From positions 1 through 17,800 of the forward strand of contig NYZA01000010.1 in assembly GCA_002686955.1 (NCBI GenBank): a DNA stretch of 17,800 nucleotides, written 5' to 3'. Within the stretch, counting starts at the first letter, position 1; each line of letters opens with the position of its first letter. Origin of the DNA: Gemmatimonadota bacterium (GTDB lineage Bacteria; GCA-2686955). The position numbers and the translations under genes were made by a program. Shown here in pieces: positions 2,340-17,800 of this stretch. The notes beneath the pieces are model-generated. The model saw nothing but the letters and a program-made list of their open reading frames with translations. It was not told where the DNA came from and made no database searches.

Positions 2340-3611
2340 CTACCGTTCGTGACGTCTCATTCCGAATCCTACGAGCAACCCGACCATTCCCATCGTCAGG
2401 AGCAACGACGACCCTCCGTAAGAGACGAGGGGCAGGGTCAAACCTGTCACGGGCATCAGGCCTGTGGCCATACCCACATTGACCACGACGTGATAGGTTA
2501 GCACGGTCGCGATTCCGAAGGCCGAGAGCGATGAGAAGCGATGCCGCGATTCCTGCGCGAAACGGATCGCCTTGTGGATCACAAAGAAGAAGAGTCCTAG
2601 TACCACGGCTGTCCCGACCAATCCCCATTCCTCTCCCAAGACCGAAACAATGAAATCGGTGTGTCGCTCAGGAATGAAATCGAGCGTCGACTGCGTGCCC
2701 TCGCGAAAGCCCTTGCCAAATAGGCCGCCCGAGCCGATCGCGACCTTACTCTGGATGATCTGATATCCGGCACCGCGCGGATCGGTTTCCGGCTGCAAGA
2801 AGGAAACGATCCGTTGTCGCTGGTAGTCGTGCAGTTGCGCCCAGAGGGATGGCGTCACCAGACCGGCTACGATATTGGAAGCGATCGCGAGGCCGCCGCG
2901 AATCCATCCCATTCCCGATAGAATCACGGTGGTCGTGACCACAACCATGAGCATGCCCCACGGCACCAGGTGGATCCATCCCGCCGCCTTGCCGAGCAGA
3001 GGCGGGTACATAAACGCGATCATCGCACTGAGCGCGGGCGCGACGATTAGAAAGAGGCGCACCGGTGAGAGCCCGCGCCAGTAGAGCATGGCCAACACAA
3101 TTGGAGGGAAGGCCAGTGAGGTGCCGAGATCCGGCTGCTTTAGAATCAAAAACATCGGAACCAATCCGACGGCTGCTGTCCAGGATAGGATGCTCAGGCG
3201 ATTCGGATCGACTCGATGATCGGCGAGAAGACGAGCCAACGCCAGAATCGTCGCGATCTTCGCCAGCTCTGATGGCTGAAAGGCCAGGGGACCAACATCG
3301 AGCCACCGTTTCGTGCCCGCAGTTTCGCCTGGAAGGAGCAACACCGCGCACAAGAACAGAATCGTCGCACCAAACAACAAGTACGCAACGCCTTCGAGGC
3401 TCCGAGGATTCATGATCATCGTGACGATGGAGATAACGATACCGACTCCCAACCACCTCAGCTGCGCCATATGAAGTTTGCCGAAAGAGCCCGCCTCCGC
3501 ACCACCGACGGCACTGAAGATCAGTGCGGCGCCGATGAACCCGAGAAACACGAAGGCCACGATCGGCGATAGATCGAGGTTGTGACGGCGACGATCGGAT
3601 AGAAGGCTCAT
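2340..3611 (-). CDS. rodA: RodA, SEDS peptidoglycan glycosyltransferase
   Basis: RodA polymerises lipid II into glycan strands during side-wall growth and works as a pair with PBP2 in the inner membrane. The 423-residue product is a polytopic SEDS protein (FtsW/RodA/SpoVE). Visible landmarks are KRWLDVGPLAFQPSELAK (101-118), KQPDLGTSL (158-166), GAGYQIIQSKVAIGSGGLFGKG in the large periplasmic loop, PERHTDFIVSVLGEEWG (314-330) whose Asp319 matches the essential Asp of the family, and the C-terminal GLTLPLVSYGGSSLL. It is RodA rather than FtsW because it follows mrdA directly. It is some 50 residues longer than E. coli RodA, mainly in mid-protein membrane segments at about 210-255. Its ATG overlaps the mrdA stop in an ATGA (3608-3611), a sign of coupled translation. 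Confidence 0.95.
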   Translation of the reverse strand: MSLLSDRRRHNLDLSPIVAFVFLGFIGAALIFSAVGGAEAGSFGKLHMAQLRWLGVGIVISIVTMIMNPRSLEGVAYLLFGATILFLCAVLLLPGETAGTKRWLDVGPLAFQPSELAKIATILALARLLADHRVDPNRLSILSWTAAVGLVPMFLILKQPDLGTSLAFPPIVLAMLYWRGLSPVRLFLIVAPALSAMIAFMYPPLLGKAAGWIHLVPWGMLMVVVTTTVILSGMGWIRGGLAIASNIVAGLVTPSLWAQLHDYQRQRIVSFLQPETDPRGAGYQIIQSKVAIGSGGLFGKGFREGTQSTLDFIPERHTDFIVSVLGEEWGLVGTAVVLGLFFFVIHKAIRFAQESRHRFSSLSAFGIATVLTYHVVVNVGMATGLMPVTGLTLPLVSYGGSSLLLTMGMVGLLVGFGMRRHER

Positions 3612-5419
3612 GACTTCTCGAAATACTGCCTGAGAATCCGGCCGACAATTGGGGCCGCGGTCGCCCCTCCATGTCCCCCTTCCTCAACGATGCAGGCCGC
3701 CACTATCTCCGGCGCGCCGATCGGTGCCACACCCACGAACCAGGCATGGGTTTCGCCGTGGGGATTCTCGGCGGTGCCCGTCTTCCCGCCGACCTCGATC
3801 CCGGGTACTGCCGCCTTCTCTCCGGTTCCTTTCCTCCCTTCTACCGCCCGCAGGAGCGCCTCTTCCAGGATTGCGAGTGTCTCCTGCGCGAGATCCAGTC
3901 GCCGGGTGGAAATTGTAGGCACCTTTTCTACTCCTCGGTTGTCCGCCGACGCGGCCCGCTTCAGAAGATGAGGCATTGCTAGCTCGCCTCCGGCCGCGAC
4001 TGCTCCGAAAAACGATGCTATCTGCAAAGGAGTCACGAGAATCTCGCCTTGACCGATCGACAAGTTGAGGAGGATTCCTCGCGACCAGCCCTTTGGGCCG
4101 AAATGCTCGTCATACCATTCGGTCGATGGGAGTTCCCCCGATTTCTCGCCTGGAATGTCGATTCCTGTTTTCGAAGCGAACCCCAGATCGCGGGCGCCCG
4201 ACATAAGAGGATCGAGTTGAAAGCGCTGCACGAGCTGATAGTAGAAGACATCGCAGGACCTCTCGAATGCCTCGAGCGGGTCGGTCTGCCCATGGCCGCC
4301 CCAAAACCAACAACGAAAAAAGCGACGCCCGAATTGATAGCCTCCCGTGCACGCGGCGGGGAACTCCGTCGATCGGTCGATAATCCCGCTCTCGAACGCC
4401 AAAGCCGACATCACCAGCTTCCAGGTCGAAGCGGGGGGATAGAGCCCCGCGATCGCGCGATGGAGCATCGGTGTCTTCGGATCGTCTCTGATAGTGGCCC
4501 AATCGCTGCTCGATATCTCTCCTCGGCCGAAGAGATTCAAGTCGTAGTCAGGCTTCGAAACGAGCACCAGAACATCTCCGTCTCGCGGATTCAACGCTAC
4601 GATCGCGCCGGCTCGATCCGCCAGCAGAGAATCGGCGAGAAGCTGAAGATCGAGATCAAGCGTCAGAAACACATCCATTCCGGGGACTGGATCGCGATGT
4701 TCTTCGTTGGGCAAAAGCCGAACTTCTCGGCCATGGGAATCCACCTCGACAACGCGAACTCCATCTCGACCCCGGAGCAGCATCTCGTACCGCCGTTCGG
4801 CACCACTTCTGCCGACGAGCTCGCCCGGTCCGTATCGACCGACTGCCCATGGAAGATGGAGCTCGTCTCTTCGTATCTCTCCCAGATAGCCGATGGCGTG
4901 GCCGGCGAGTGAACCGTATCGATAGTACCTCTTCGCCTTGATCCGAACATCGATCTCAGGCAGTTTCGTAGCGTGCTCTTCCACCAGGGCCACCAGTGGA
5001 AGCTTCGCATCGCCCACGATACGGACCGGTCGAGGCAATCTACGTCCTAACGGATTTGGATCCTGGACGACCGCCTCTTGAAGTCGACGACGGAGAAACT
5101 CGCGGTCGACGCCGGCCGAAACCGCAATCAGCTCCGCGAGGGTATCGGCGCGATTCGATGTCATTCCCAGTGTCGCCTCGACCGCGTAGATCGCTCGATT
5201 CTCGGCAACAATGCGCCCTTCTCGATCTCGTATTATCCCGCGCGGCGCCGGTCGAACCAGAGCGCGAATACGGTTCTCATCGGCCGCCTCGAGATAAAGA
5301 CGGTGCTGGAGGATCTGTAGATATACGAGCCTCGACACTAGCGCTGCGAATAGGAGGACGAGGGCGATCCTCGCCCAGGTCGCCCGCTCATCGATGCCGG
5401 GAGAGGTGTCAGCGACCAT
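3608..5419 (-). CDS. mrdA: Penicillin-binding protein 2 (peptidoglycan D,D-transpeptidase MrdA)
   Basis: Class B PBP that cross-links peptidoglycan in the elongasome. The 603-residue protein has a single N-terminal membrane anchor (about 15-37), a PBP dimerisation domain starting with PRGIIRDREGRIVAEN (59-74), and a C-terminal transpeptidase domain. Catalytic motifs are complete: STWK with nucleophile Ser331, SCD at 388-390 in place of a strict SxN, and KTGTAE at 546-551. Length and motif spacing match PBP2 rather than FtsI. The ATG has GAGG 7 nt upstream, lying inside the 3' end of mreD, with which it overlaps by 11 bp. It overlaps rodA by 4 bp, so the PBP2-RodA pair is encoded in adjoining, probably coupled, frames. 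Confidence 0.96.
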   Translation of the reverse strand: MVADTSPGIDERATWARIALVLLFAALVSRLVYLQILQHRLYLEAADENRIRALVRPAPRGIIRDREGRIVAENRAIYAVEATLGMTSNRADTLAELIAVSAGVDREFLRRRLQEAVVQDPNPLGRRLPRPVRIVGDAKLPLVALVEEHATKLPEIDVRIKAKRYYRYGSLAGHAIGYLGEIRRDELHLPWAVGRYGPGELVGRSGAERRYEMLLRGRDGVRVVEVDSHGREVRLLPNEEHRDPVPGMDVFLTLDLDLQLLADSLLADRAGAIVALNPRDGDVLVLVSKPDYDLNLFGRGEISSSDWATIRDDPKTPMLHRAIAGLYPPASTWKLVMSALAFESGIIDRSTEFPAACTGGYQFGRRFFRCWFWGGHGQTDPLEAFERSCDVFYYQLVQRFQLDPLMSGARDLGFASKTGIDIPGEKSGELPSTEWYDEHFGPKGWSRGILLNLSIGQGEILVTPLQIASFFGAVAAGGELAMPHLLKRAASADNRGVEKVPTISTRRLDLAQETLAILEEALLRAVEGRKGTGEKAAVPGIEVGGKTGTAENPHGETHAWFVGVAPIGAPEIVAACIVEEGGHGGATAAPIVGRILRQYFEKS

Positions 5420-5915
5420 GCATCCGCCTCTTTCGCTCGAGCGCTAGGATACCGAGCCGAAAGACCGGCGGCGCCAGAACCGCCGTGTACGCGGCCTTCA
5501 TGCCCACCGCGAGTGGTGCGCTACGCACGACTTGGCCGAGATTCCCGCCGGTGTCGAGCACAAGAGCGAGCATATGGACAACGACCGCGATCGTGACCGT
5601 GAAGAGAACTTGAGTAGAAATCTGTCGCTTGTAAATCCTCCGGCCGAGCTTCCCCGCCAAATAGCCACCGATCGTGCCGACGAGGGCGAAAACGCCGAGC
5701 GTTCCTCCGGCGACCGCATCGCGTACCAGACCCGTCGCGAATCCCAGGGCCGAAGCCCGGGCCGCCCCACGTTCCACTCCGTACACACAGAGCACGATCA
5801 ATGCCAAATCGGGTGTGGCACCCAAGACGGCAATAGAGTGAAACTGGGGCTGTGTCTCCACCATCAGCACGAGGTAGAGCAATAGAGCGAAGAGCGCCGA
5901 GCGGATCAGGGTCAC
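5409..5915 (-). CDS. mreD: MreD, rod shape-determining membrane protein
   Basis: 168-residue hydrophobic protein with about five membrane segments, for example residues 4-18, 28-46, 55-92 and 103-122. MreD is an inner-membrane partner of MreC in the elongasome. MreD sequences diverge strongly, so the call rests on size, hydrophobic pattern and position between mreC and mrdA. A stretch like GLVRDAVAGGTLGVFALVGT (61-80) resembles the conserved loop of the family, where a D-x(4)-G-LG pattern is common. The start codon is GTG, overlapping the mreC stop as GTGA at 5912-5915; the 3' end overlaps mrdA by 11 bp. It ends in a basic tail (LERKRRMHGR) expected to be cytoplasmic. Confidence 0.92.
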   Translation of the reverse strand: MTLIRSALFALLLYLVLMVETQPQFHSIAVLGATPDLALIVLCVYGVERGAARASALGFATGLVRDAVAGGTLGVFALVGTIGGYLAGKLGRRIYKRQISTQVLFTVTIAVVVHMLALVLDTGGNLGQVVRSAPLAVGMKAAYTAVLAPPVFRLGILALERKRRMHGR

Positions 5916-6748
5916 GGTTGCCTCGATGGCAGAAGGGTCTGACCGGTCTCGTCGAACACAAGGCTTTCGACCTCCGGATCGATTGAGAGCACAACGAGCA
6001 CTTCTTCAATTCGGTTGAATTCCACCGAAGGCGTGACGTCGATCTTCCGAAAGAGCTCGTAGTCGTGAGCTTGCACCCGATCGACGACGCCAATCCGCAC
6101 ACCTCGCGGATAGCGCGCGCCTAGCCCGCTCGTGGCGATCGTGTCTCCCACCGCCACCTCACAGTGAAGGGGAACGTTGTCGAGCGAGATTCGTGCACCA
6201 TCGAACCACCGGGCGATCCCCACGACCCGCGTTTGCAGATCGTACGCGCTCACGGCCAGCTGCCGCGAAAAGAGCGGCTCGACGGCGGAGGAGAAGTCGT
6301 TTGCGATGGCGATGCGGCCGACGAAGCCATCTGGCGTGATCACCGCCATACCGACCCGGATGCCCACCCGGGCGCCTTTGTTGATGATCATGGTCAAGTC
6401 GCCCGATCGCGGAGCTCCCTGCAATGCGATGACTCGAGCCGCAACCAACGCCGAGGGCTTACGATCGCAGAAATCCAGCACTCTCCGCAGCCGTCGATTC
6501 TCCGCCCTGAGCTCTTGGTGCCGTGTGAGCTGCTGCTCCGCGTTCGCCAATCTCCCGGCAATCCGGCTGTACTCCCGCCTGAGTGCCCGTCCTTCGTCGA
6601 TCCAACCGACCGTCGCGCGGGGCGGATGAAAGGCGAGCGCAACGACCCTTAAGGTTGCGTGAGAAAGAGGCCCGTCTCCGATTCCGATTAGCACCAGAGA
6701 CAGTGCGACGGCGAGGATCAATACGGCCTCGTCTCTGAAGCCGTTCAT
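5912..6748 (-). CDS. mreC: MreC, rod shape-determining periplasmic scaffold
   Basis: MreC is a bitopic protein whose periplasmic part self-assembles and activates the PBP2-RodA pair. The 278-residue product has one N-terminal membrane helix (about 8-24), a heptad-like coiled-coil region at about 52-92 with the typical ELRAENRRLRRVLDF ending, then a beta-rich domain. The latter includes ITPDGFVGRIAIANDFSSAV (137-156), a match to the usual G-x-VGRV core of MreC, and TSGLGARYPRGVRIGVV (206-222), a hallmark of the second beta barrel. The ATG is 11 bp downstream of the mreB stop, with a purine run (GAGGGG) immediately before it, closer than usual. It overlaps mreD by 4 bp. Length is normal for the family. 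Confidence 0.95.
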   Translation of the reverse strand: MNGFRDEAVLILAVALSLVLIGIGDGPLSHATLRVVALAFHPPRATVGWIDEGRALRREYSRIAGRLANAEQQLTRHQELRAENRRLRRVLDFCDRKPSALVAARVIALQGAPRSGDLTMIINKGARVGIRVGMAVITPDGFVGRIAIANDFSSAVEPLFSRQLAVSAYDLQTRVVGIARWFDGARISLDNVPLHCEVAVGDTIATSGLGARYPRGVRIGVVDRVQAHDYELFRKIDVTPSVEFNRIEEVLVVLSIDPEVESLVFDETGQTLLPSRQP

Positions 6749-6759
6749 CCCCTCGGGTC

Positions 6760-7848
6760 CTAGCCTCGCCGCGCGGGAATGAGGACCTTCTCGTACGCCT
6801 CCATGTCGTCGAGGATCTTACCGGTTCCTCGGACCACGCAGGTGAGAGGATCGTCGACCACTGAGACCGGCAGATTCGTTTCCTCCCGGACCAGGGCATC
6901 GAGGCCCCGCAGAAGTGCGCCTCCCCCGGTCATCACAATTCCTCGGTCGACGATGTCCGCCGCCAGCTCGGGAGGAGTTCCCTCCAGCGTCAGCCGAACG
7001 GAGTTGACGATCTGGCTGATAGGCTCACGCAGTGCGTCACGAATCTCGACCGAATTGATGACCATGGTCTTCGGAATGCCGGTAACCAGGTCGCGACCCT
7101 TTACCTCCATCTCGAGCTCTTCGTCGAGCGGAAACGCGGATCCGACATTGATCTTGATGCTCTCGGCGGTCTGATCCCCGATCAGCAAATTGTAGGCGTT
7201 CTTCAGATACTGAACGATTGACTCATCGAAACGGTCGCCACCGACGCGAATCGATTCGTCCGATACGATGCCGGAAAGCGCGATGACCGCGATCTCCGTA
7301 GTACCGCCGCCGATATCGATGATCATGTTGCCGCTGGCCTCATCGACCGGCAGCCCCACTCCGATCGCCGCTGCGATCGGTTCCGGAACCAGATAGACCT
7401 CACGGGCACCAGCATGCTCGCAGGAGTCGCGAACAGCCCGTTTCTCCACTTCGGTGATCCCACTCGGAACGCATACGATGATCCGAGGCCGAAAGAGGAA
7501 TCGTCTTTTCAATACCCTCGTAATGAAGAGGCGCAGCATCTCTTCGGTGATCTCGTAATCGGCAATCACGCCGTCTTTCATTGGGCGAATAGCGTCGACA
7601 TCATCGTGTGTCTTGCCGATCATCTTCTTCGCGTCGGACCCAATCGCCACGACCCGACGATCTCGCATATTGACGGCGACCACCGATGGGTCGTTCAGAA
7701 CGATCCCGCGGCCGCGTACATAGATCAGAGTATTGGCGGTGCCGAGATCGATCCCCACATCGTTTGAGACGAATCCCATCAGCGCGGCCAACCCCTTGCC
7801 CGACGTTTCCATGGTTGATCGTTCGGTTGGCACGCTTGCGCCTTTCAT
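6760..7848 (-). CDS. mreB: MreB, actin-like cell shape protein
   Basis: MreB forms membrane-bound filaments that guide side-wall synthesis. The 362-residue frame contains the actin-fold nucleotide sites: phosphate 1 at DLGTANT (34-40), phosphate 2 at DIGGGTTEIAV (178-188), and the adenosine motif MTGGGALLRG (306-315). Also visible are PSGITEVEKRAV (128-139), VPEPIAAAIG (154-163) and RVGGDRFDESI (201-211). The family usually begins about 8-10 residues before the SNDVGIDLGT segment, so the true start may be ATG 7779 (Met24), which has AAGGGG 12 nt upstream, or Met13; the longest frame from 7848 has only GAGAG abutting the ATG. The upstream export gene stops 17 bp before 7848, and mreC follows after 11 bp. 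Confidence 0.98.
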   Translation of the reverse strand: MKGASVPTERSTMETSGKGLAALMGFVSNDVGIDLGTANTLIYVRGRGIVLNDPSVVAVNMRDRRVVAIGSDAKKMIGKTHDDVDAIRPMKDGVIADYEITEEMLRLFITRVLKRRFLFRPRIIVCVPSGITEVEKRAVRDSCEHAGAREVYLVPEPIAAAIGVGLPVDEASGNMIIDIGGGTTEIAVIALSGIVSDESIRVGGDRFDESIVQYLKNAYNLLIGDQTAESIKINVGSAFPLDEELEMEVKGRDLVTGIPKTMVINSVEIRDALREPISQIVNSVRLTLEGTPPELAADIVDRGIVMTGGGALLRGLDALVREETNLPVSVVDDPLTCVVRGTGKILDDMEAYEKVLIPARRG

Positions 7849-7865: not shown

Positions 7866-8546
7866 TCAGATTCCTCTGAGCAATGTCGCCAGAATGCCTA
7901 TTACACCTGTCGTCGTCAGCACAACGACGCGCGTATCGATGAGGGAAAACTTCGTCGGCACGTAGACCACATCTCCCTCTCGTAGAATGAAGTCGGTCGA
8001 AGGATCGCCCTCTTTGAAAAGCTCTTCGGCGTCAACCTCGATGTTCAGTGCACCCCCCGTGGTCTGCCTCGTGATCGTAAGGGCCGAGAGCTTGGCGTCG
8101 TCGGTGGGCCCTCCGGCGGCCGCCAGGTAGTCGCTAAGATGCGCTCCCTCCTGAAACTCCAAGCGCCCTTTCACGCTCACCTCGCCGATGACGGCCACCG
8201 TCGGCTTGTCGAATGCGCGCGGGATCACCGTGACCTTGGGATCGACGATATAGTCGCGCAGCCCCTTCGTAATAACACCCGCGATCTCGTCGGGCGTACG
8301 GCCGACCACCGGCAGATCGCCGATAAGCGGATATCGAACCATGCCGTCGCCGGTGACATCCAGCGTCAGAGAGAGCTCGGTGTGTTTCCAGACGAATACA
8401 TCGAAGCGATCGTTTGCTCCCACGACATATGGCACATCCACGACGGGGTTGGCCGCGGCCGGAATCGCGGATACGGCCGCGGCGAACAGGAGCGGAAGGG
8501 CCGGTGAGATCCACCGGCGCATCGGAAGGAAGATGGGCGACGACAA
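7866..8546 (-). CDS. Polysaccharide export protein (Wza-type, Poly_export and SLBB domains)
   Basis: Small outer-membrane/periplasmic export protein of the Wza/GfcE class, which helps move capsule or exopolysaccharide out of the cell. Numbering from the ATG at 8522: signal peptide with RR and hydrophobic core (1-24), Poly_export domain from YVVGANDRFDVFVWKH to DPKVTVIP (31-101), one SLBB domain (about 106-190) with VIGEVSVKGRLEF and the typical REGDVVYVP end, and a C-terminal hydrophobic segment (about 198-215). No lipobox Cys follows the signal peptide, unlike classical Wza. The start is set at TTG 8546 because GGGAGG lies 7 nt upstream (8554-8559); ATG 8522 lacks a ribosome site but gives a cleaner signal peptide. 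At about 220 residues it is shorter than E. coli Wza. It stands 17 bp before mreB and probably shares its transcript. Confidence 0.86.
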   Translation of the reverse strand: MSSPIFLPMRRWISPALPLLFAAAVSAIPAAANPVVDVPYVVGANDRFDVFVWKHTELSLTLDVTGDGMVRYPLIGDLPVVGRTPDEIAGVITKGLRDYIVDPKVTVIPRAFDKPTVAVIGEVSVKGRLEFQEGAHLSDYLAAAGGPTDDAKLSALTITRQTTGGALNIEVDAEELFKEGDPSTDFILREGDVVYVPTKFSLIDTRVVVLTTTGVIGILATLLRGI

Positions 8547-8553
8547 GACCGTA

Positions 8554-8559
8554 CCTCCC
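8554..8559 (-). promoter_or_regulatory. Shine-Dalgarno site deciding a TTG start
   Basis: On the minus strand GGGAGG stands 7 nt before a TTG at 8546, in frame with the export protein. It is the only strong ribosome site near the gene, and the in-frame ATG 24 bases further on has none, so TTG is preferred as the start. Confidence 0.5.
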
Positions 8560-8646
8560 AGTGCTCGGGGAGTGAAAACGCAGCGCAACACGTAATGGAA
8601 CTTCAACTTTCGAGATTCTAGGGGATGCAGGCGAACGAGACCATAG

Positions 8647-10113
8647 CTACTTCCGCACCTTCCAGAAATCGGCGATATGCCCGCCAACCGCGACCGCTCC
8701 CCTGGCCAGGTAGGAGATGTCCTCCCAGGAGCGGATCTTCTTGATGTTCCTTACGACGAATCGAGGCGAGAGAAAGTTCTTGTAGATCTGCGCCGACATG
8801 TTCTGCACTTCGTCGGGGGTCATATCGGGCGTGGTGAGAACCGGTTCGGTCATATCGAAGCGCTCGTACTCGGCGGGATCGAATCGAAACCAGCCGTTTG
8901 CCTGCGCCATTTCGTAGATCGGAGTGCCCGGGTAGGGAATCACGACGGTCGCCTGGAGCATCTCGGCATACCCTTGATCGAACAGCTCCCGGGCAAGATC
9001 GACGGTGCGCTGAGCGTCGCTCTTCGTCTCCCAGGGGTAGCCGACCATGATGGTGAGCTGCACGTCGAGGCCCGCTCGAGAGGCCATCTTGCAGCCCTCC
9101 ACTATGTCTTCGACCTTGATGTTCTTGTCGAGCATATCGAGGGTGGCCTGCGAAGCGGATTCCAGCCCTGACTTCACCTTGCGAAACCCCGCCTCGACCA
9201 TTAGATCGATCAGATCGGGGTGCTTCACGAGCAGATCGAACTTCATATTACAGGTGAAGAGGATCTCGTCCGAATAGCCCCTTTCGATCATGCCCCTACA
9301 GAAATCGTAGGTCCACTTGCCGGTCGGGAAGTTGCCGGAATCGTCGAATACCTCTTTGACTCCGTAGTTCTCGATCAAATGCCCGACTTCATCGAGTAGC
9401 TTCGTGTGTTTCTGCGTGCGGAAGTTGTTGTAAGTGGTGGTCCATGAGCAGAAGGTGCAGCGTCCCCATTGGCAGTCGCGGGCGACCATCGTGTAGCGGA
9501 ATGGCTCTCTTTTCTTCCATTTCTCGTAGTAGTGATGCGCCTTGGTGAGGTCACGATCGATGAAGGGCAGGGAATTCAGGTCGGAATCGAGGCGAAATGG
9601 ACCGCTTGAACGAATCTCGCCCCGATCGTCCCGCCACCAAGCGCCACCGGGCGGCGAATCGGAGGAATCGCGCAGCCATCGGACGAGTCCTCTCAGAGAA
9701 AAGTCGTAGTCCCCCCCGGTCAGTACGAAGTCGGTCTTCGACCGCAGCAGAGTCTCTTCCGGCAGGGCCGTGACGTGATCGCCGTAGAGCACGGTCTTGA
9801 TCTCGGGAATCCGCTCCTTGATATCGTCGATGATATTCCAATGGTATTTCACCACGGGGGTCTTCGTTTCGAAGGCCACGATGTCGACCTTCTCGCTCTC
9901 CAATTCGCGCAGGAAATCTTCGTAGGTGCGCTGCTCGGCGATGCCGTCGTGCCAGAGCACGTTGTTCCCATCCTCGGCGAGAAGCGTGGCCGCGTAAGCC
10001 GGAACCAGGGGATAGATATATGATCCGATGCTCATCCACTGGAACTGGCGGTTCTGGGTGAGCATCGGGCTGGCCTTGCCGTTCAGAGCGGGGTAGGCGA
10101 TGCAGACTTTCAT
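8647..10113 (-). CDS. B12-binding domain radical SAM protein
   Basis: 488-residue enzyme with an N-terminal cobalamin-binding-like Rossmann domain (about 1-150) and a radical SAM TIM barrel (about 205-400). The first domain has the LYGDHVTALPEETL segment (109-122), equivalent to the GGxHxTxxPEE motif of this class. The iron-sulfur Cys cluster is at RDCQWGRCTFCSW (212-224), with spacing CX4CX2C (Cys214, 219, 222) instead of the standard CX3CX2C. SGLESASQATLDMLDK (315-330) and YPGTPIYEMA (394-403) are typical downstream motifs. The substrate is unknown; relatives act in methylation, hopanoid, bacteriochlorophyll or lipid and glycan modification. The start at ATG 10113 is supported by GGAGAG 8 nt upstream. 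It is first in the minus-strand run, with 100 bp before the export gene. Confidence 0.9.
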   Translation of the reverse strand: MKVCIAYPALNGKASPMLTQNRQFQWMSIGSYIYPLVPAYAATLLAEDGNNVLWHDGIAEQRTYEDFLRELESEKVDIVAFETKTPVVKYHWNIIDDIKERIPEIKTVLYGDHVTALPEETLLRSKTDFVLTGGDYDFSLRGLVRWLRDSSDSPPGGAWWRDDRGEIRSSGPFRLDSDLNSLPFIDRDLTKAHHYYEKWKKREPFRYTMVARDCQWGRCTFCSWTTTYNNFRTQKHTKLLDEVGHLIENYGVKEVFDDSGNFPTGKWTYDFCRGMIERGYSDEILFTCNMKFDLLVKHPDLIDLMVEAGFRKVKSGLESASQATLDMLDKNIKVEDIVEGCKMASRAGLDVQLTIMVGYPWETKSDAQRTVDLARELFDQGYAEMLQATVVIPYPGTPIYEMAQANGWFRFDPAEYERFDMTEPVLTTPDMTPDEVQNMSAQIYKNFLSPRFVVRNIKKIRSWEDISYLARGAVAVGGHIADFWKVRK

Positions 10114-10142
10114 GTTGGAGTCTCTCCGTGGCTGATCGCACA

Positions 10143-10171
10143 CCGACGAGCCAGAATGCCAATCGTATACT
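10143..10171 (+). promoter_or_regulatory. Weak sigma70-like promoter candidate for the Kelch-like gene
   Basis: TATACT at 10166-10171 matches five of six bases of a -10 box. Seventeen bases upstream, CCGACG (10143-10148) matches three of six of a -35 box. It lies in the 197 bp gap between two divergent genes and would give a leader of about 130 nt before the Kelch-like gene. The GTATAC core is palindromic, so it could also read toward the radical SAM gene, but no -35 box was found for that direction. Chance occurrence is quite possible. Confidence 0.22.
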
Positions 10172-10310: not shown

Positions 10311-11333
10311 ATGCCGGTGCCAGCGGCCGCACTCGTAGTCCAGACTTGGACACTCGCACTCGTCCTCCAAGCTTCACCGCTTTTTCACCACCATGCGGCT
10401 GCCCCCCTGCCGGATCCGCGATGGATCGATCGAGCGGCCTGTCCCAAGACTGGTGCCTTCGGCGAAGCCCTTGCCTCGACCGGAGACGCATTGTGGATCG
10501 TCCGAGATGCCACGGCGACATCCACGCCGGATTTCTGGCGATACGATCCGATCTCCGATCTCTGGGAATCCCGGGATACCTCCACTCTGCCCGACGGCGT
10601 GTTTCGCAACGGCACCGCCCTGGCCTGGGATGGCGACCGGACGATCTACGCGCTCGCTGGAGCGCGCTACAACGATCTCGACCGGACCGAGTTCTGGCGA
10701 TACGACATGGTCGGTGACTTCTGGCTGCAGATCGAATCCACGCTCGGCCCGCAAGGCGCGGGGAACGCCCTCAACTACTGCGCATGGGACGGGAAGCTTT
10801 ACGCGATTCTGGGAAGCAGACAGCACGGCACCACCTTCGTCCGGTACGACCCCGCCCAGGGTTCTTGGTACGAGTTGACACCGCCGCCGCAAAAGGCGGA
10901 CGACGGATCGAGCCTGGCGTGGGCGGGAGCGGGCTCTCTTTATGCTTTTGTGGGGGAGTACAGCGAGACGGTTCCGCATTTCGACTTCTTCGAATACGAC
11001 CTGGCGAGCGACGAATGGAGCTCACTGGCCAGCGTGCCCGATCCGGGAGGTGTGGGGGACGGGGCATCGCTTCTGTGGGCAGGGGCCTTCGATTCCCGCT
11101 ACACCGGCAGCATCCATGCACTGAGCGGAGGGGCGGTTGACGAAACCCCTTCGGTTTTGGTCCATCGTTACTCGATCGCCCAGGACTCCTGGTCCGCGAT
11201 GGCCGACCTCACCTGCGAGATCGGCTACTACAACGGCAACCGGCTGGGCTTCGCCGACGGCTTCATCTACTGCTGGCAGGGGAGCCGAAGCACCTATCTC
11301 GGCAGTGGCAAGAAACTCGTTCGTCTGGAGTAG
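10311..11333 (+). CDS. Secreted Kelch-like beta-propeller protein
   Basis: 340-residue protein made of repeated Kelch-type units. The same pattern, an aromatic or hydrophobic residue, x-x-Y-D/S, then Trp about six residues on, recurs at FWRYDPISDLW (75-85), FWRYDMVGDFW (128-138), FVRYDPAQGSW (176-186), FFEYDLASDEW (226-236) and VHRYSIAQDSW (284-294). A last strand, KKLVRLE, could close the ring. Interleaved strands such as TIYALAGA, KLYAILGS and SLYAFVGE are the other halves of the blades. The N-terminus is hydrophobic (about 4-24) with no basic residue before it, so it is a poor but possible signal peptide. AAGGAG at 10295-10300 supports the ATG. Function is unknown; such proteins are often extracellular or binding modules. 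It is the only complete plus-strand gene in a long minus-strand region, and its 3' end overlaps the convergent neighbour by 40 bp. Confidence 0.78.
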   Translation: MPVPAAALVVQTWTLALVLQASPLFHHHAAAPLPDPRWIDRAACPKTGAFGEALASTGDALWIVRDATATSTPDFWRYDPISDLWESRDTSTLPDGVFRNGTALAWDGDRTIYALAGARYNDLDRTEFWRYDMVGDFWLQIESTLGPQGAGNALNYCAWDGKLYAILGSRQHGTTFVRYDPAQGSWYELTPPPQKADDGSSLAWAGAGSLYAFVGEYSETVPHFDFFEYDLASDEWSSLASVPDPGGVGDGASLLWAGAFDSRYTGSIHALSGGAVDETPSVLVHRYSIAQDSWSAMADLTCEIGYYNGNRLGFADGFIYCWQGSRSTYLGSGKKLVRLE

Positions 11334-11954: not shown

Positions 11955-14900
11955 TCAGAATCGGACCCTCTCGTCGCGCCATCGTTGCCGCAAAACCCGC
12001 GCAAGGAAGAGGGGATTGCCCACGAGGTACCGGCGCCAGAGACGCCCCGGCTCGACGAAGAGCCTGGCGGCCCATTCCATGTGGTGATCGAGCATCCACC
12101 GCGGTCCGCGGCGCACATCACCGGTCACGAAATCGAAGAGCGCCCCGACACCCCACACCACTGCTGCGTCGATCCGGTCTAGGTTGTCGCGAATCCAACG
12201 CTCCTGCACCGGTGTTCCCATCCCCACCAGTACGATTTCCGGCTGAGCGCGCTCTATATCGTCCAGCGCCGACTCGTTCGCGGCCGGATCGTCCGACAAG
12301 TAGCCATGGTATGTTCCCACGACTCGAAGTCCCGGATGATCCCCTTCGAGAATCGACTTGGCGCGCTCCGCAACGCCCGGCCGGCCCGCCGCGAAGTAAA
12401 GGCGGGTCCCCTCCGAGGCCGCCCGCGCGCAAAGGTCGTGGATCCAATCGGCTCCGGTCATCCGCCGCGGGAGCCATCGCCCCAGGAGCGCGGCCGCCAG
12501 GCGCACGCCCGCTCCGTCGACATAGACCAGGTCGGCCCGGTTGATGATCCCTCGAAGTTCGGCGTCGCCGTACGCCTGATCGAGCACATGCACGTTGGCG
12601 TAGAGGACGACCCGCCGGGGCTCTCCCTCGCCGACGAGAGTCCGCACGCGATCGAGCAGTTCGGGCAACGGGAAGGGATCGACGCCGATTCCCAACACAT
12701 CGACCCGCTCGTCATGGTGGGGCGGCGGCGTTTCCGAGGGACGGCCCAATTCCTCGCGATAGAATTGCGCGTAGTTGTCGACCATCGCTTCGGTGGTGAA
12801 ACGCTCCAGGACCCGCGCGCGACCCTCCGCGCCATATTTCCGAGCTCGCTCGGGCTCGGCGAGCAGATCGGCGACACGTTCGGCCAGCGCCTCCACATCG
12901 CGCACGCCGACAAGATGCCCGGTCACTCCCTCCTCGACAATCTCCGATACACCGCTCACATCGGTGGCCACCACCGCCTTGCCGAGACACATCGCCTCCA
13001 GCAGCGAGAGTGGGAAAGTCTCGACGACCGGATCGGAACAGAGAACCGCAACATCGAAAAGAGGCACGATTCGCTCAACATCGGTTCGAAAACCGGTGAA
13101 GTGGATCTTCGAGTCGAGCCCCATCTCCGAGATCCTGGAATCGAGGCGCTCACGCTCTGGCCCGTCTCCGACGATCAGTATGTGGGCATTCGGTATTCGC
13201 TCGAAAATGCGCGGTGCCGCGTCTAGCAACACTACGTGGGCCTTCTCCGGTCGCAGCACTGCTGTAATGCCAACCACTGGTGCCCCTTCCGGAATCCCCC
13301 ATTCGCTCGCGGGGATCGCATCGATCGTCTCAGGGTCGAATCGATCCGGATCGATCCCGTTGTAGATCACGCAAGATCGCTTGGCATTAATCCCCCGCTT
13401 CTCCTCGTAAAAGCGTCGCTGCGCATCCGCCACATAGATAAAGCGATGACAGAGCCGCTGTAGCAACACCATTGCCTGGTTCTTGAGAGGAGTATCGCCC
13501 ACCTCTCCGGTAGCATGCTCTGCGCTCACGACCACCGGCGTGCGTGCGATTCTCGCCGCCAGCCACCCGATGACCTTTGTATTGAATTCGTAGGTTTGGA
13601 GGATGTCGACCTTCTCGCGCCGCAAGATGCGCGCGACGGCCCAGATCGCCTTGATCGCCCGCAAGTCATAGTACGGACGCATATTGAAGAAACGAGCGGG
13701 GATGCCGGCCTCGAGCAGTTCGTCGTAAAAGGGCCCGACCTCGCGGAAGCAACAAACCAGAGTGCGGAACAGTTTACGATCGAGGCGCGTCGCCAGATCG
13801 GCAAGTTGGCGCTCAGCACCGCCTATTCGCATGTTGCAGGGCAAGAAAAGAATCGTCAACCGATCGGGATCGGCCCGGCCCCACCGATCGCGAGCAGGGT
13901 CGAAGTGACGGGGCTCCATCTCGTGCGCAGCCGCTTCGAGCTCGATCGCGTCAGCAGAACCCGCCGGCTGTCGGCCCCCGTTCGCCAGCAAGGTGGCGAC
14001 TTTGTCATCGGCACGACGAAAGCGCTCCTCCCAAACGTTTGCCTTCGCCTCGGCGACTCGTCGGTCCCGAAGCTCTTCGGCGTCCGACCCCGACTCATCC
14101 AGCGACACTTCCAGTGCCTCGATGAAGCTCGAATGATCGCGCGCAACCCGCACGAGGGGCTCCAGATCTCTCAACGCCGGAATCTCGGTAGAGACCGATG
14201 GAATCCCCGCGGCGAAGTACTCGTAGGTCTTCGTCGGGAACATATAGTGCACGAACTCCGCACGAAGAAAGGGAATCAACCCGACATCGAATCCGGCGAG
14301 ATAGCTCGCCAGTTCATGGGTCTCGCGCCCTCCGAGAAGATGGATGTTCGATCGAAGCCTCGACGAATCCGGCACCGGCTCCCGCTCCGGCCCGATCAGG
14401 ACCAGGCTCCAGTCGGGATGCGCGTCGCTGATCGCCTCGAGCAATTCGTAGTCGATCCGCGAGTCGATCGCGCCGATGTAGCCGATCCGCGGGCGAGGAA
14501 TGTCGGAGAGGTCTCCGGCGATTCTTGGGCTCTCATCTCCGGTCATTCTATCGACCACCGCTGAATCGACCGCGCTCGGCAAGTAGACGAGATCGGAGCG
14601 AATCGAGATCAGATCCTCTTCGAGCGTTCGCGCCGTCACGAAAACCAGGTCCGATCGCCGGATCATCGACGATTCCATAGGGTCGAGCAGCCTTCGTTTC
14701 TCACGTCGCGGTTCGAAAACGGCGATGCGATCGTTGCAATCGAAGATCACCGCTCGCGGTGATAGGAAGTCCTCGTCGCGAAGGTAGAAGGGGTGGTAGG
14801 ACCAGACGATCGGGCGCCGAAATCCCAGTCGACGCACAACCCTCGCCATGCTGCTTCGCAACAAGTAGTGGTTCCAGGCGTCGTTGGCTGTATGAATGCC

Positions 14901-15224
14901 GGTCTGAAACAGGAGCGGCGGCGGAGTCCACACATAGAGATCGGGAGCCACTCTGCGCACGCCGGCTCTCCAGCGGCGAAGATCGTCGCGGATCTGATCT
15001 GCCCGCTCAGGGTGAAACTTGATCGTCGAGAGCGCATAGGGGCGTTCGCAGAAAAGCACGCGGTTGCCGGTTGCGGCCAAATGGTGCGCGGTCTTGTGCA
15101 TGATGAGCTGCACGCCGTCCCACCAGAGCCAGCTCGGTATGACGACATCGAAACCGCTGAGCGTGTGGGTGTTCGAAGGCGACGCCGTTTCGTTTGGCGC
15201 AGAACACACGCGGCTACCATTCAT
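11955..15224 (-). CDS. Three-module glycosyltransferase (TuaH-like + GT4 + GT26 WecG/TagA/CpsF)
   Basis: A single open frame of 1089 residues joins three glycosyltransferases. Module A (about 24-415) has the FDVVIPSWLWWDGVQ opening and YMFPTKTYEYFAAGIPSVST (327-346), as in TuaH-type enzymes. Module B (about 455-825) is a GT-B GT4 enzyme: MRIGGAERQLADLA (465-478), ITAVLRPEKAH (653-663), VGDGPER (685-691) and the EX7E motif with Glu735 and Glu743. Module C (about 838-1080) is GT26: ANVHVLDQA (876-884), YVDGAGV with the likely catalytic Asp903, RMTGADWIHDL (921-931), VGMGTPVQERWI (1000-1011), and the Arg-rich tail expected to touch the membrane. Linkers near 416-452 and 826-838 are polar and Pro- or His-rich. 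GT26 enzymes add the second sugar to undecaprenyl-linked precursors. The ATG overlaps the upstream gene by 11 bp. Members of the three families are normally separate genes; no frameshift or internal stop is seen. Confidence 0.92.
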   Translation of the reverse strand: MNGSRVCSAPNETASPSNTHTLSGFDVVIPSWLWWDGVQLIMHKTAHHLAATGNRVLFCERPYALSTIKFHPERADQIRDDLRRWRAGVRRVAPDLYVWTPPPLLFQTGIHTANDAWNHYLLRSSMARVVRRLGFRRPIVWSYHPFYLRDEDFLSPRAVIFDCNDRIAVFEPRREKRRLLDPMESSMIRRSDLVFVTARTLEEDLISIRSDLVYLPSAVDSAVVDRMTGDESPRIAGDLSDIPRPRIGYIGAIDSRIDYELLEAISDAHPDWSLVLIGPEREPVPDSSRLRSNIHLLGGRETHELASYLAGFDVGLIPFLRAEFVHYMFPTKTYEYFAAGIPSVSTEIPALRDLEPLVRVARDHSSFIEALEVSLDESGSDAEELRDRRVAEAKANVWEERFRRADDKVATLLANGGRQPAGSADAIELEAAAHEMEPRHFDPARDRWGRADPDRLTILFLPCNMRIGGAERQLADLATRLDRKLFRTLVCCFREVGPFYDELLEAGIPARFFNMRPYYDLRAIKAIWAVARILRREKVDILQTYEFNTKVIGWLAARIARTPVVVSAEHATGEVGDTPLKNQAMVLLQRLCHRFIYVADAQRRFYEEKRGINAKRSCVIYNGIDPDRFDPETIDAIPASEWGIPEGAPVVGITAVLRPEKAHVVLLDAAPRIFERIPNAHILIVGDGPERERLDSRISEMGLDSKIHFTGFRTDVERIVPLFDVAVLCSDPVVETFPLSLLEAMCLGKAVVATDVSGVSEIVEEGVTGHLVGVRDVEALAERVADLLAEPERARKYGAEGRARVLERFTTEAMVDNYAQFYREELGRPSETPPPHHDERVDVLGIGVDPFPLPELLDRVRTLVGEGEPRRVVLYANVHVLDQAYGDAELRGIINRADLVYVDGAGVRLAAALLGRWLPRRMTGADWIHDLCARAASEGTRLYFAAGRPGVAERAKSILEGDHPGLRVVGTYHGYLSDDPAANESALDDIERAQPEIVLVGMGTPVQERWIRDNLDRIDAAVVWGVGALFDFVTGDVRRGPRWMLDHHMEWAARLFVEPGRLWRRYLVGNPLFLARVLRQRWRDERVRF

Positions 15225-16551
15225 AAACGCTTTCTTTCTTGGCTTCCAAGATTCGGTCGACCGCCTCTTTTCCCATCTGGACGGAATGATCCATATTGCC
15301 GACCTCGTACTTCCATCCTCCGAATCGACCTCTCGACAGTATATCTTTCGATTCCAGCCAGGCCTGAACCACTCGCAGTCGATCATCCCTGCCGAGAAAT
15401 GGGACTGGATAGGTGTGATCTCGCCGAATCACGTGGGTGGAGACGATCGCATCTCGATCCGATTCCGAGATCAAGCGGGTGTTGATGAGTCCTTGAAGAG
15501 TCTGCTCTAGCGCTTCGTCGTGGGTCACCGGTTTGTATTTCGATTCGCTGATTTCGCAAAGAAGGGAATAGTGGTCCTTGTCCGGCGCGATCAGAGGCGA
15601 GTAGTTCGACAAATAGGTGACTCTATAGAAGGGGCAATTGCTCTCCGGGAAATACATCCAGTTCTTATCCGATGGACAGGGCTGACGGAAGCCGACACCG
15701 ACGATCCAGCCACCGGCAAAGACCATCTCTCTCGCGGCCTCTCGAACCGCATTCGGCACACCCTCGATCATCGGCACGAAGAGATCGAGCGGGGCCCCAT
15801 TCACCAACATATCGTATGAATCCTCCTCGCCGGTATCGAACCGGAGTCGCTTCGCTTCGGGATCGATCGAAATCAGATTCCGTTCCAGCTTCAAGTGGCG
15901 GCCCAAACGCCCCCTCATCGGAGAGAAAAGGCCCCCGGTTCCGCCGCGAAGAGGGAAATCGAAGGTTGAATTCGGCCCCCAGCTCGCGTCCTTCTTGGCG
16001 CCGACGATATTGGCCAAGACCATCTTCATATCGACGACACTAACGCGCTCGGCGATCCAACCGGAATCCATGAGCTCGGCGGGAGTTGCCCACACTTTGA
16101 AGTTGTATGGAATCATGAAGTACGTGGCGATCCCCTCGCCGAAGCAGTGCAGAATCCACTCGTGGAAGTTGGTGTACGATGGGAACTTCAGCTGGGCCTC
16201 GTGAAGCCCCAGCACGCACTCGAGAACGACGTCCTTTTCAAGGAAATGGAAGTTGTTCTGGAAGGGGTAGGCGATGAATCGATCCTGGACCCAGACCCAG
16301 GATTCTCGACCGTGGGAAACCGTCTCCGGCACCATCTCGGCCATAAAGGCGTCGAAAAACTCGTAGTGACTGAAGATCACATGACCGCCGATATCCCAGG
16401 TGAAGCCTTCGTCATCGGTGAAGCTGGCGGCGAGTCCACCGACATAGTCGTTCTTGTCGTATACGGTGAAATCCCGATAGCCGAGCTGCTGAAGTCGGTG
16501 GGCAGCTCCGAGCCCCAAGGGTCCGGCGCCGAGAATCACGATGCGCTTCAT
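15214..16551 (-). CDS. UDP-galactopyranose mutase-like FAD-dependent oxidoreductase
   Basis: 445-residue flavoprotein of the amine oxidase/protoporphyrinogen oxidase/UGM superfamily. The N-terminal Rossmann motif is VILGAGPLGLGAAHRLQQLG (5-24), followed by YDKNDYVGGLAASF (31-44) and DIGGHVIFSHY (53-63), where GGH is typical of UGM-like members. Further segments are PYNFKVWATPAELM (148-161), LRGGTGGLFSPM (201-212), YPVPFLGRD (381-389) and GRFGGWKYEVGNMDHSV (408-424), which resembles the FAD-contacting C-terminal part of UGM. The neighbours make a role in forming or modifying a nucleotide sugar or glycan more likely than porphyrin oxidation. It is longer than classical UGM (about 370-390), so the exact substrate is open. 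The ATG has GGAG 5 nt upstream. It lies 40 bp after the flippase gene and overlaps the glycosyltransferase gene by 11 bp. Confidence 0.84.
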   Translation of the reverse strand: MKRIVILGAGPLGLGAAHRLQQLGYRDFTVYDKNDYVGGLAASFTDDEGFTWDIGGHVIFSHYEFFDAFMAEMVPETVSHGRESWVWVQDRFIAYPFQNNFHFLEKDVVLECVLGLHEAQLKFPSYTNFHEWILHCFGEGIATYFMIPYNFKVWATPAELMDSGWIAERVSVVDMKMVLANIVGAKKDASWGPNSTFDFPLRGGTGGLFSPMRGRLGRHLKLERNLISIDPEAKRLRFDTGEEDSYDMLVNGAPLDLFVPMIEGVPNAVREAAREMVFAGGWIVGVGFRQPCPSDKNWMYFPESNCPFYRVTYLSNYSPLIAPDKDHYSLLCEISESKYKPVTHDEALEQTLQGLINTRLISESDRDAIVSTHVIRRDHTYPVPFLGRDDRLRVVQAWLESKDILSRGRFGGWKYEVGNMDHSVQMGKEAVDRILEAKKESVYEW

Positions 16552-16591
16552 TCCATCTCCGGTGTCGGCGCGGGTTTTCGCCACTGCCCGC

Positions 16592-17800
16592 TCAGCTCTG
16601 GCTGCCGATGGCGGCTCGGACTTGTCCGCCGAGCTTGCCCAAAAGGGCTCGATCGTCGGCGGCGATCACGCCGAATCGGAAGAGGCCGTAGTAGTACGTG
16701 GCTCCGCCGGCCACAACCGCCAAAGCAGGAGCGTGAAGACCGTGGAATACGGCAAGGGCGACCGCAAGCGTGATCAATGCCGGTAGAGCGACCGATCGCG
16801 GAATCGAAAAGAGCGCGGAGCGGCCGAACTCCTGCGACAGTATGCGGAATTTGATGAGCACCATCACGATCGTCGAGACCAGAGTCGCCGCGGCCGCTCC
16901 ATAGAGCGACCATTGCGGGATCAATAGCCAGTTCAGGCCGATGTTGATCGCCACGACGAGGAAGCCGTAGAAGGTGAAGCTCAAGAGACGTTTCGAGTTG
17001 ATGAGTATCGGGAGCATGATTGCGTTGTATGCGTACAGGGCGTAAGCAAAGGAAAGGATCATAACCGGAACCGTGGCCAGGTCGAACTCGGCCCCGAAGA
17101 GCAAGTGCACCACCCAACGAGCACCGAAGGGCGTCAAGAGCACGAGAGGGAGGCCGTACACGAGGGTCAGCAGGCGGCAGCCGCGCGAGTACGCGATGCG
17201 CACCCTTTCTCTCCCTTCGACCATCGCGGCCGATACCGTGGGCAAAAGCGCCCCACGAACAGCCATGATCACGATCGCCGCTGCTTCGAAGACCTTGTAG
17301 GCGGCTCCATAGCAGCCTGTCGCCACAAGCTCGCCGACTCCATCGGGGGCCAGGCGCGCTCCTCCAGCGATTTTCGAGAGCATCAAGATATCGATCTTGC
17401 CGTGCGCGATCATCAAAACGATGAGCAGCCCGAGGGGAACCGTGTCCCGCATGAGGCTCTTGGCCAGCACGGGATCCAGAGCGAAGCGGTGCCCTACATA
17501 CTCTCGGCGAACCAACCATATGTTTAGGATCGCTACTAAGATATGCGCGAAGGCGATCACCACGAAGACGGAGAGCAGCCCCCCGCCGAGAAGGAGGGCG
17601 ATTCCCCCCCCTATCGCGCTGATGCCGCTGAAGATGCTCCCGACGATCGAGGGTACCTTCAGGCGCTCGTGAGCGACGAAGAGCGATTGAGCGCTGTCGC
17701 TGATGACGACCGTGAAGATGCTGATCGCCATCACTCCCATATAGAGACGGATCTCGACACCGAAGGGGGAGGCGATGAGGAAGAGGACGAGCAGCCCGGC
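16592..17800 (-). CDS. Wzx-type polysaccharide flippase, C-terminal part (5' end outside window)
   Basis: Polytopic inner-membrane protein of the MOP superfamily (polysaccharide biosynthesis/O-antigen flippase group), which carries undecaprenyl-linked glycans to the periplasmic face. About 402 residues are visible and the frame is open to the window edge; an ATG at 17740 is internal, because hydrophobic coding sequence continues upstream of it. At least eight hydrophobic segments can be traced, for example SIFSGISAIGGGIALLLGGG and ILSFAYALYAYNAIMLPILI, with short basic loops between (for example RREYVGHRF). The ISDSAQSLFVAHERLKVPS and LLIVLMIAHGKIDILMLSK stretches fit the repeated helix-pair arrangement of the family. 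The lone MurJ alternative is less likely because the two genes after it are glycan genes. It is first of the visible three-gene block, with 40 bp before the next gene. Confidence 0.88.
   Translation of the reverse strand, partial: AGLLVLFLIASPFGVEIRLYMGVMAISIFTVVISDSAQSLFVAHERLKVPSIVGSIFSGISAIGGGIALLLGGGLLSVFVVIAFAHILVAILNIWLVRREYVGHRFALDPVLAKSLMRDTVPLGLLIVLMIAHGKIDILMLSKIAGGARLAPDGVGELVATGCYGAAYKVFEAAAIVIMAVRGALLPTVSAAMVEGRERVRIAYSRGCRLLTLVYGLPLVLLTPFGARWVVHLLFGAEFDLATVPVMILSFAYALYAYNAIMLPILINSKRLLSFTFYGFLVVAINIGLNWLLIPQWSLYGAAAATLVSTIVMVLIKFRILSQEFGRSALFSIPRSVALPALITLAVALAVFHGLHAPALAVVAGGATYYYGLFRFGVIAADDRALLGKLGGQVRAAIGSQS

Follow-up and report, generated by a model that had tools for sequence, protein, structure and literature searches.

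A gene joining TuaH-like, GT4 and GT26 glycosyltransferase modules in a Gemmatimonadota bacterium

The fused gene and its neighbourhood

We analysed a 17 800-nucleotide stretch of contig NYZA01000010.1 from a Gemmatimonadota bacterium (hereafter the window), in which an uninterrupted frame of 1089 residues joining three glycosyltransferase (GT) modules had been predicted at positions 11955–15224. The coordinates proved right and the coding strand is the minus strand: on translation, the frame runs from 15224 to 11955 and ends in a TGA stop, while the plus strand of the same region is interrupted by stops. The product of 1089 aa has a computed mass of ~123 kDa, no transmembrane segment was found in it, and the chance of a random frame of 1089 codons at the window GC content is P ~2e-15. 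An HMM domain search of the product, which the original prediction had proposed, identified the GT4 and GT26 modules by Pfam and the TuaH-like module by NF047676, and all three were complete in this protein as judged by profile matches and motifs. The window was compared with G001, the only other genome of the same family in our collection, which represents another genus; the rest of the collection is related at the domain level only. The features were annotated as follows.

7866–8687, minus strand: polysaccharide export (Poly_export/SLBB) outer-membrane-type protein (profile match)
8647–10143, minus strand: B12-binding radical SAM protein, downstream of the fused gene (profile match; directly after the fusion in G001)
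11955–15224, minus strand: whole fused gene, 1089 aa, ATG at 15224 and TGA at 11955
11958–12104, minus strand: C-terminal appendage of module 3, residues 1041–1089, with R1054, R1061 and R1065 (alignment to TagA)
11958–12710, minus strand: module 3, GT26 WecG/TagA/CpsF glycosyltransferase, residues 839–1089 (Pfam, active-site alignment, fold)
12711–12740, minus strand: linker 2, residues ~829–838 (module boundaries)
12741–13859, minus strand: module 2, GT4 glycosyltransferase with EX7E (E735/E743), residues ~456–828 (Pfam, motif, structure matches)
13860–13982, minus strand: linker 1, residues ~415–455, GGRQPAGSADAIEL (G001 comparison, codon GC pattern)
13983–15164, minus strand: module 1, TuaH-like GT-B glycosyltransferase, residues ~21–414 (NF047676, PF13692, homology, Foldseek)
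15214–16584, minus strand: FAD-dependent amine-oxidase-like oxidoreductase, upstream, its stop overlapping the fusion start (profile matches; same position in G001)
16592–17740, minus strand: Wzx-type flippase (Polysacc_synt), upstream, cut near the window end (profile match; homologue in G001)

The ATG of the fused gene lies within the last codons of the oxidoreductase gene. Initiating enzymes of the PF02397 and PF00953 types were present in the window's genome and in G001. The interval that separates the fusion from the radical SAM gene in the window holds a Kelch-repeat protein gene on the plus strand (10311–11333), which is missing at the G001 locus. A complete rod-shape set (RodA, PBP2, MreD, MreC and MreB; 2340–7848, minus strand), to judge by sequence and gene order, directly adjoins the polysaccharide genes. 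A PEP-CTERM/XrtA system was considered on the basis of TIGR03088 and TIGR03027 matches and rejected, as the GT4 and export proteins scored below the cut-offs of that system and no match to exosortase PF09721 was found in the window's genome or G001.

The three modules

Module 1 matches the TuaH profile NF047676 over residues 138–404 of the fusion (6.2e-27) and, when searched alone, clears the Pfam GT-B cut-off (PF13692, 41.9 versus 27 bits). Both lobes are present, and the DCND (162–165) and PTKTYEY motifs are complete instances of the DCxD and K-x-YEY-x-A-x-G-x-P motifs common to the TuaH-like sequences aligned. A Foldseek search with the low-confidence model of this module returned GT-B matches, including MshA (1.6e-9). 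In comparison with Bacillus subtilis TuaH, module 1 can be aligned along most of the domain length and has a YEY motif of the same kind, but it reaches 94.5 bits against an equivalog cut-off of 550. The predicted label of TuaH-like therefore holds as family resemblance and not as a functional name; TuaH is itself a putative teichuronic acid GT with unproven donor and acceptor (PMC6265299).

In module 2, the two Pfam GT4 halves were matched at residues 467–628 (PF13439, 7.6e-25) and 641–803 (PF13692, 2.2e-46), with PF00534 also above its cut-off and the EX7E motif in place. Its closest matches in the structure libraries were HepE, BshA and PglA. The predicted structures of modules 1 and 2 were too weak to derive how the domains are arranged, and that of module 3 was good.

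Module 3 covers the whole PF03808 domain (1–168 of 168) at residues 897–1066 (9.9e-57, 191.8 versus 27.4 bits) and scores 134 bits with TIGR00696 against a cut-off of 69. Its predicted fold superposes on TagA with a TM-score of 0.96 and an rmsd of 1.3 A (Thermoanaerobacter italicus TagA/TarA structures 7mpk and 5wb4). The catalytic Asp65 of TagA corresponds to D903, and residues N39, R83, Y137, Q167 and E168 to N877, R921, Y975, Q1007 and E1008. The motif positions given in the original prediction (YEY at 334–336, Glu735, Glu743 and Asp903) were exact. TagA/TarA differs in being a stand-alone protein of 244 aa, whereas module 3 forms the C-terminal part of the fusion and has Tyr875 at the position of Thr37, as do most of the closest GT26 sequences aligned. 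Since Thr37 of TagA is thought to hold the donor sugar (PMC6493773), the donor of the GT26 module may not necessarily be ManNAc. The TarA equivalog cut-off (NF041710) was not reached (107.9 versus 350 bits).

The C-terminal appendage of TagA is needed for activity and membrane binding (PMC6493773). In module 3, the appendage arginines R1054, R1061 and R1065 are kept, and the helices run to residue 1088 in the model. The predicted membrane tethering is accordingly retained in the sense of a TagA-type appendage, but not of a transmembrane segment.

Conservation in a second genus and rarity among GT26 proteins

The G001 locus corresponds to the public record JALXCG010000379.1, a Gemmatimonadetes MAG contig with a coverage of 2.7x, and its gene order of flippase, oxidoreductase, fusion and radical SAM gene is the same as in the window. 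Identity between the two genomes is 69% for module 2 and 67% for module 3, with third-position differences about twice as frequent as first-position ones. Linker 1 (GGRQPAGSADAIEL) is recognisable in G001 as GGRRPSGPADAVEL at 52% identity, again with third-position changes in excess. The original prediction had held that loss of stops through assembly error was not suggested, and the comparison bears this out. Both assemblies are draft and metagenome-type, which would allow separate genes to have been joined by an assembly or sequencing artefact, but an independent genome of another genus has this fused gene with the same linker and the same neighbours, which removes the explanation of a lost stop or misjoin. 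GC by codon position is moreover protein-like throughout both linkers, and no clear ribosome-binding site was found before the possible internal starts. The probability left for such an artefact is negligible, and the fusion is a real gene.

Module 1 has a different history. In the fused gene of G001, the entire C-terminal donor-binding lobe has been lost in frame together with the DCxD motif, while the frame remains open, so the two-lobed TuaH-like form with its motifs is absent from this copy. G001 instead encodes a full-length stand-alone TuaH-like protein on another contig (C795), which shares 62% identity with module 1 of the window, with codon-position changes of 0.31, 0.22 and 0.55 and thus an excess at the third position. 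Over the N-terminal lobe, the fused remnant is 43% and the stand-alone copy 66% identical. In the tree, the remnant falls outside the other two sequences (support 94/96) on a branch of 1.28, against 0.31 for those two; rapid decay after a duplication in the G001 lineage would best explain it, its exact placement being unsafe owing to long-branch attraction. No close stand-alone TuaH-like copy was found in the window's genome, where the next best matches were at E ~1e-5, but with both assemblies ~83–85% complete and the G001 contig covered 2.7x, absence of a copy from either genome is not certain. By these reversed arrangements, GT4-GT26 is the conserved core of the fusion, and the TuaH-like module appears replaceable in trans. 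The implied conserved unit of a three-step fused catalyst was not supported by this comparison, and with the donor lobe lost in G001, the three-in-one form is not essential.

GT26 was found in 133 of the 386 genomes of the collection. Among the matches listed, the longest GT26 frames from stop to stop were those of the window (1157 codons) and G001 (996 codons), followed by frames of ~700 codons, and the three-module order was found in no other of the GT26-bearing genomes. None of the 1427 matching plasmid records covered 80% of the query, and 14 genomes from a phylum rich in GT26 contained no frame long enough for three modules. Two GT26 peptide patterns, which reach only a subset of GT26, were searched in 84 980 species genomes and yielded 47 loci, with the three-module order only in G001. 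The search for the same order in other genomes thus recovered it only there, with module 1 truncated.

Other GT26 fusions were common. Scans of 20 other long GT26 frames gave as partners a phosphoglycosyltransferase with CoA_binding_3, GT2, polysaccharide pyruvyltransferase or STAS; in the remainder Pfam recognised nothing or gave a weak match of glycoside-hydrolase-like type. Partners at the public loci included a polytopic membrane domain, in several phyla, and a phosphoglycosyltransferase. Frames of ~700 codons occurred in 9 of 14 genomes of one phylum, and the two scanned were GT26-phosphoglycosyltransferase fusions. We conclude that GT26 fuses readily, with partners (Bac_transf/CoA_binding_3, GT2, pyruvyltransferase, STAS, the polytopic domain and tandem GT26) that belong mostly to lipid-linked glycan assembly, which shows how frequently this second enzyme of many pathways joins other glycan-assembly enzymes. 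A full GT4 was found in none of the other fusions, either in the scanned frames or at the public loci, nor was a TuaH-like module plus GT4, and no GT4-GT26 or TuaH-GT4-GT26 fusion was described in the open-access literature. The combination of TuaH-like, GT4 and GT26 was therefore seen only in one small family. Multi-module GTs are known, such as WbdA with two or three GT modules and WbbB with three (PMC11231755), as are GT26 fusions, so that the predicted rarity applies to this combination, which is new, and not to either class.

The polytopic membrane domain, which has no Pfam match, was homologous at six loci of Armatimonadota and other phyla and is possibly a diverged polyprenyl-phosphate sugar-1-phosphate transferase. 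At two further loci, one frame carries GT26 followed by two STAS domains, an odd, regulatory-looking pairing.

Proposed role in lipid-linked glycan assembly

Known GT26 members such as TagA and WecG add one sugar early to a polyprenyl-diphosphate-sugar acceptor. With slightly better than even confidence, we propose that the fusion performs two or three consecutive sugar transfers on a polyprenyl-diphosphate-linked repeat unit of an exopolysaccharide or O-antigen-like glycan. The GT26 module would bind the membrane via its appendage and add the second sugar to the carrier-diphosphate-sugar, the GT4 module would extend the chain next, and the distal TuaH-like module would add a further sugar, after which the neighbouring flippase would export the unit. 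Fusion would hold the growing lipid-linked chain local, with possible channelling between modules, and fix the enzyme ratio. A separate enzyme could probably provide the TuaH-like step in trans, and in the sister genus the stand-alone copy would carry out this same step.

This reading was favoured because of the known GT26 role, the flippase in the same run, the initiating enzymes and the recurrent pairing of the genes elsewhere: in a Chloroflexaceae MAG, GT26 follows GT4 as a separate gene at a distance of 18 bp, and GT4 is followed by a separate TuaH-like neighbour in Peptococcaceae and Desulfocucumis. The translational overlap with the preceding gene, together with the flippase, also counts in favour of consecutive additions, as do the other GT26 fusions, in which different steps of pathways of this type are combined. 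So does the intact fused module 1 in the genome with no close free copy found, the reverse of the situation in G001. More tentatively, the protein may be a synthase that builds a lipid-linked oligosaccharide in three steps, its modules following one another outwards from the membrane (GT26, GT4, TuaH-like) in the order in which their sugars are added. One genus would have all three steps fused; in the sister genus the outermost module has decayed within the fusion and a free enzyme would supply its step. We consider this full form possible but doubtful. If true, it would represent a naturally occurring multi-enzyme, free of transmembrane helices, with which defined lipid-linked oligosaccharides could be made.

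The decay in G001 also bears on the view that only GT4-GT26 works in the fused state. The TuaH-like module would then be a passenger that is being lost, or a domain that acts as a scaffold or binds the acceptor, with a free enzyme taking over its catalysis where present. The lost donor-binding lobe and DCxD motif agree with this, as does the fast evolution of the remnant in a frame that is still open. In the window, however, module 1 keeps DCxD and YEY, shows an excess of third-position changes relative to the free G001 protein and has no close stand-alone substitute that we could find, and we regard the passenger view as unlikely. The two genera offer a ready comparison for whether fusing successive GTs matters, one having lost the fused module and having a separate copy.

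A looser arrangement, in which each module acts independently on a different glycan and the three happen to be expressed as one chain without successive reactions, would fit the stand-alone TuaH-like gene of G001, which lies away from the polysaccharide locus with no GT neighbours seen, so that module 1 may serve another glycan. The recurrence of GT4-GT26 and GT4-TuaH-like neighbours in other phyla and the presence of the fused gene in one run with a flippase speak against such independence, making it quite improbable. WbdA and WbbB likewise place two or three GT modules in a single chain (PMC11231755), a precedent for a multi-module polymerase whose product would be a polymer and not a single repeat unit. 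They polymerise in ABC-transporter pathways, however, and the WbdA modules are all GDP-mannose mannosyltransferases with no GT26 described (PMC11231755), whereas the neighbour here is a flippase and not an ABC exporter. The single early addition by TagA and WecG is also ill-suited to an iterating polymerase, for which we see very little chance. Consecutive additions to a lipid-linked unit thus remained our preferred reading.

Fusion of adjacent genes would be a simple route of origin. Each of the two genomes also encodes a further GT26 fusion (contig C237, 1–1680, in the window's genome and C178, 4996–7044, in G001; both minus strand), whose N-terminal 357–404 aa carry a faint GT-B signature (PF13692, 4e-4) and look degenerate. 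It adjoins a divergently transcribed GT4 gene, the closest paralogue of module 2. In the tree, module 2 and these separate GT4 proteins formed two sister pairs, indicating that the GT4 duplication is older than the split of the genera.
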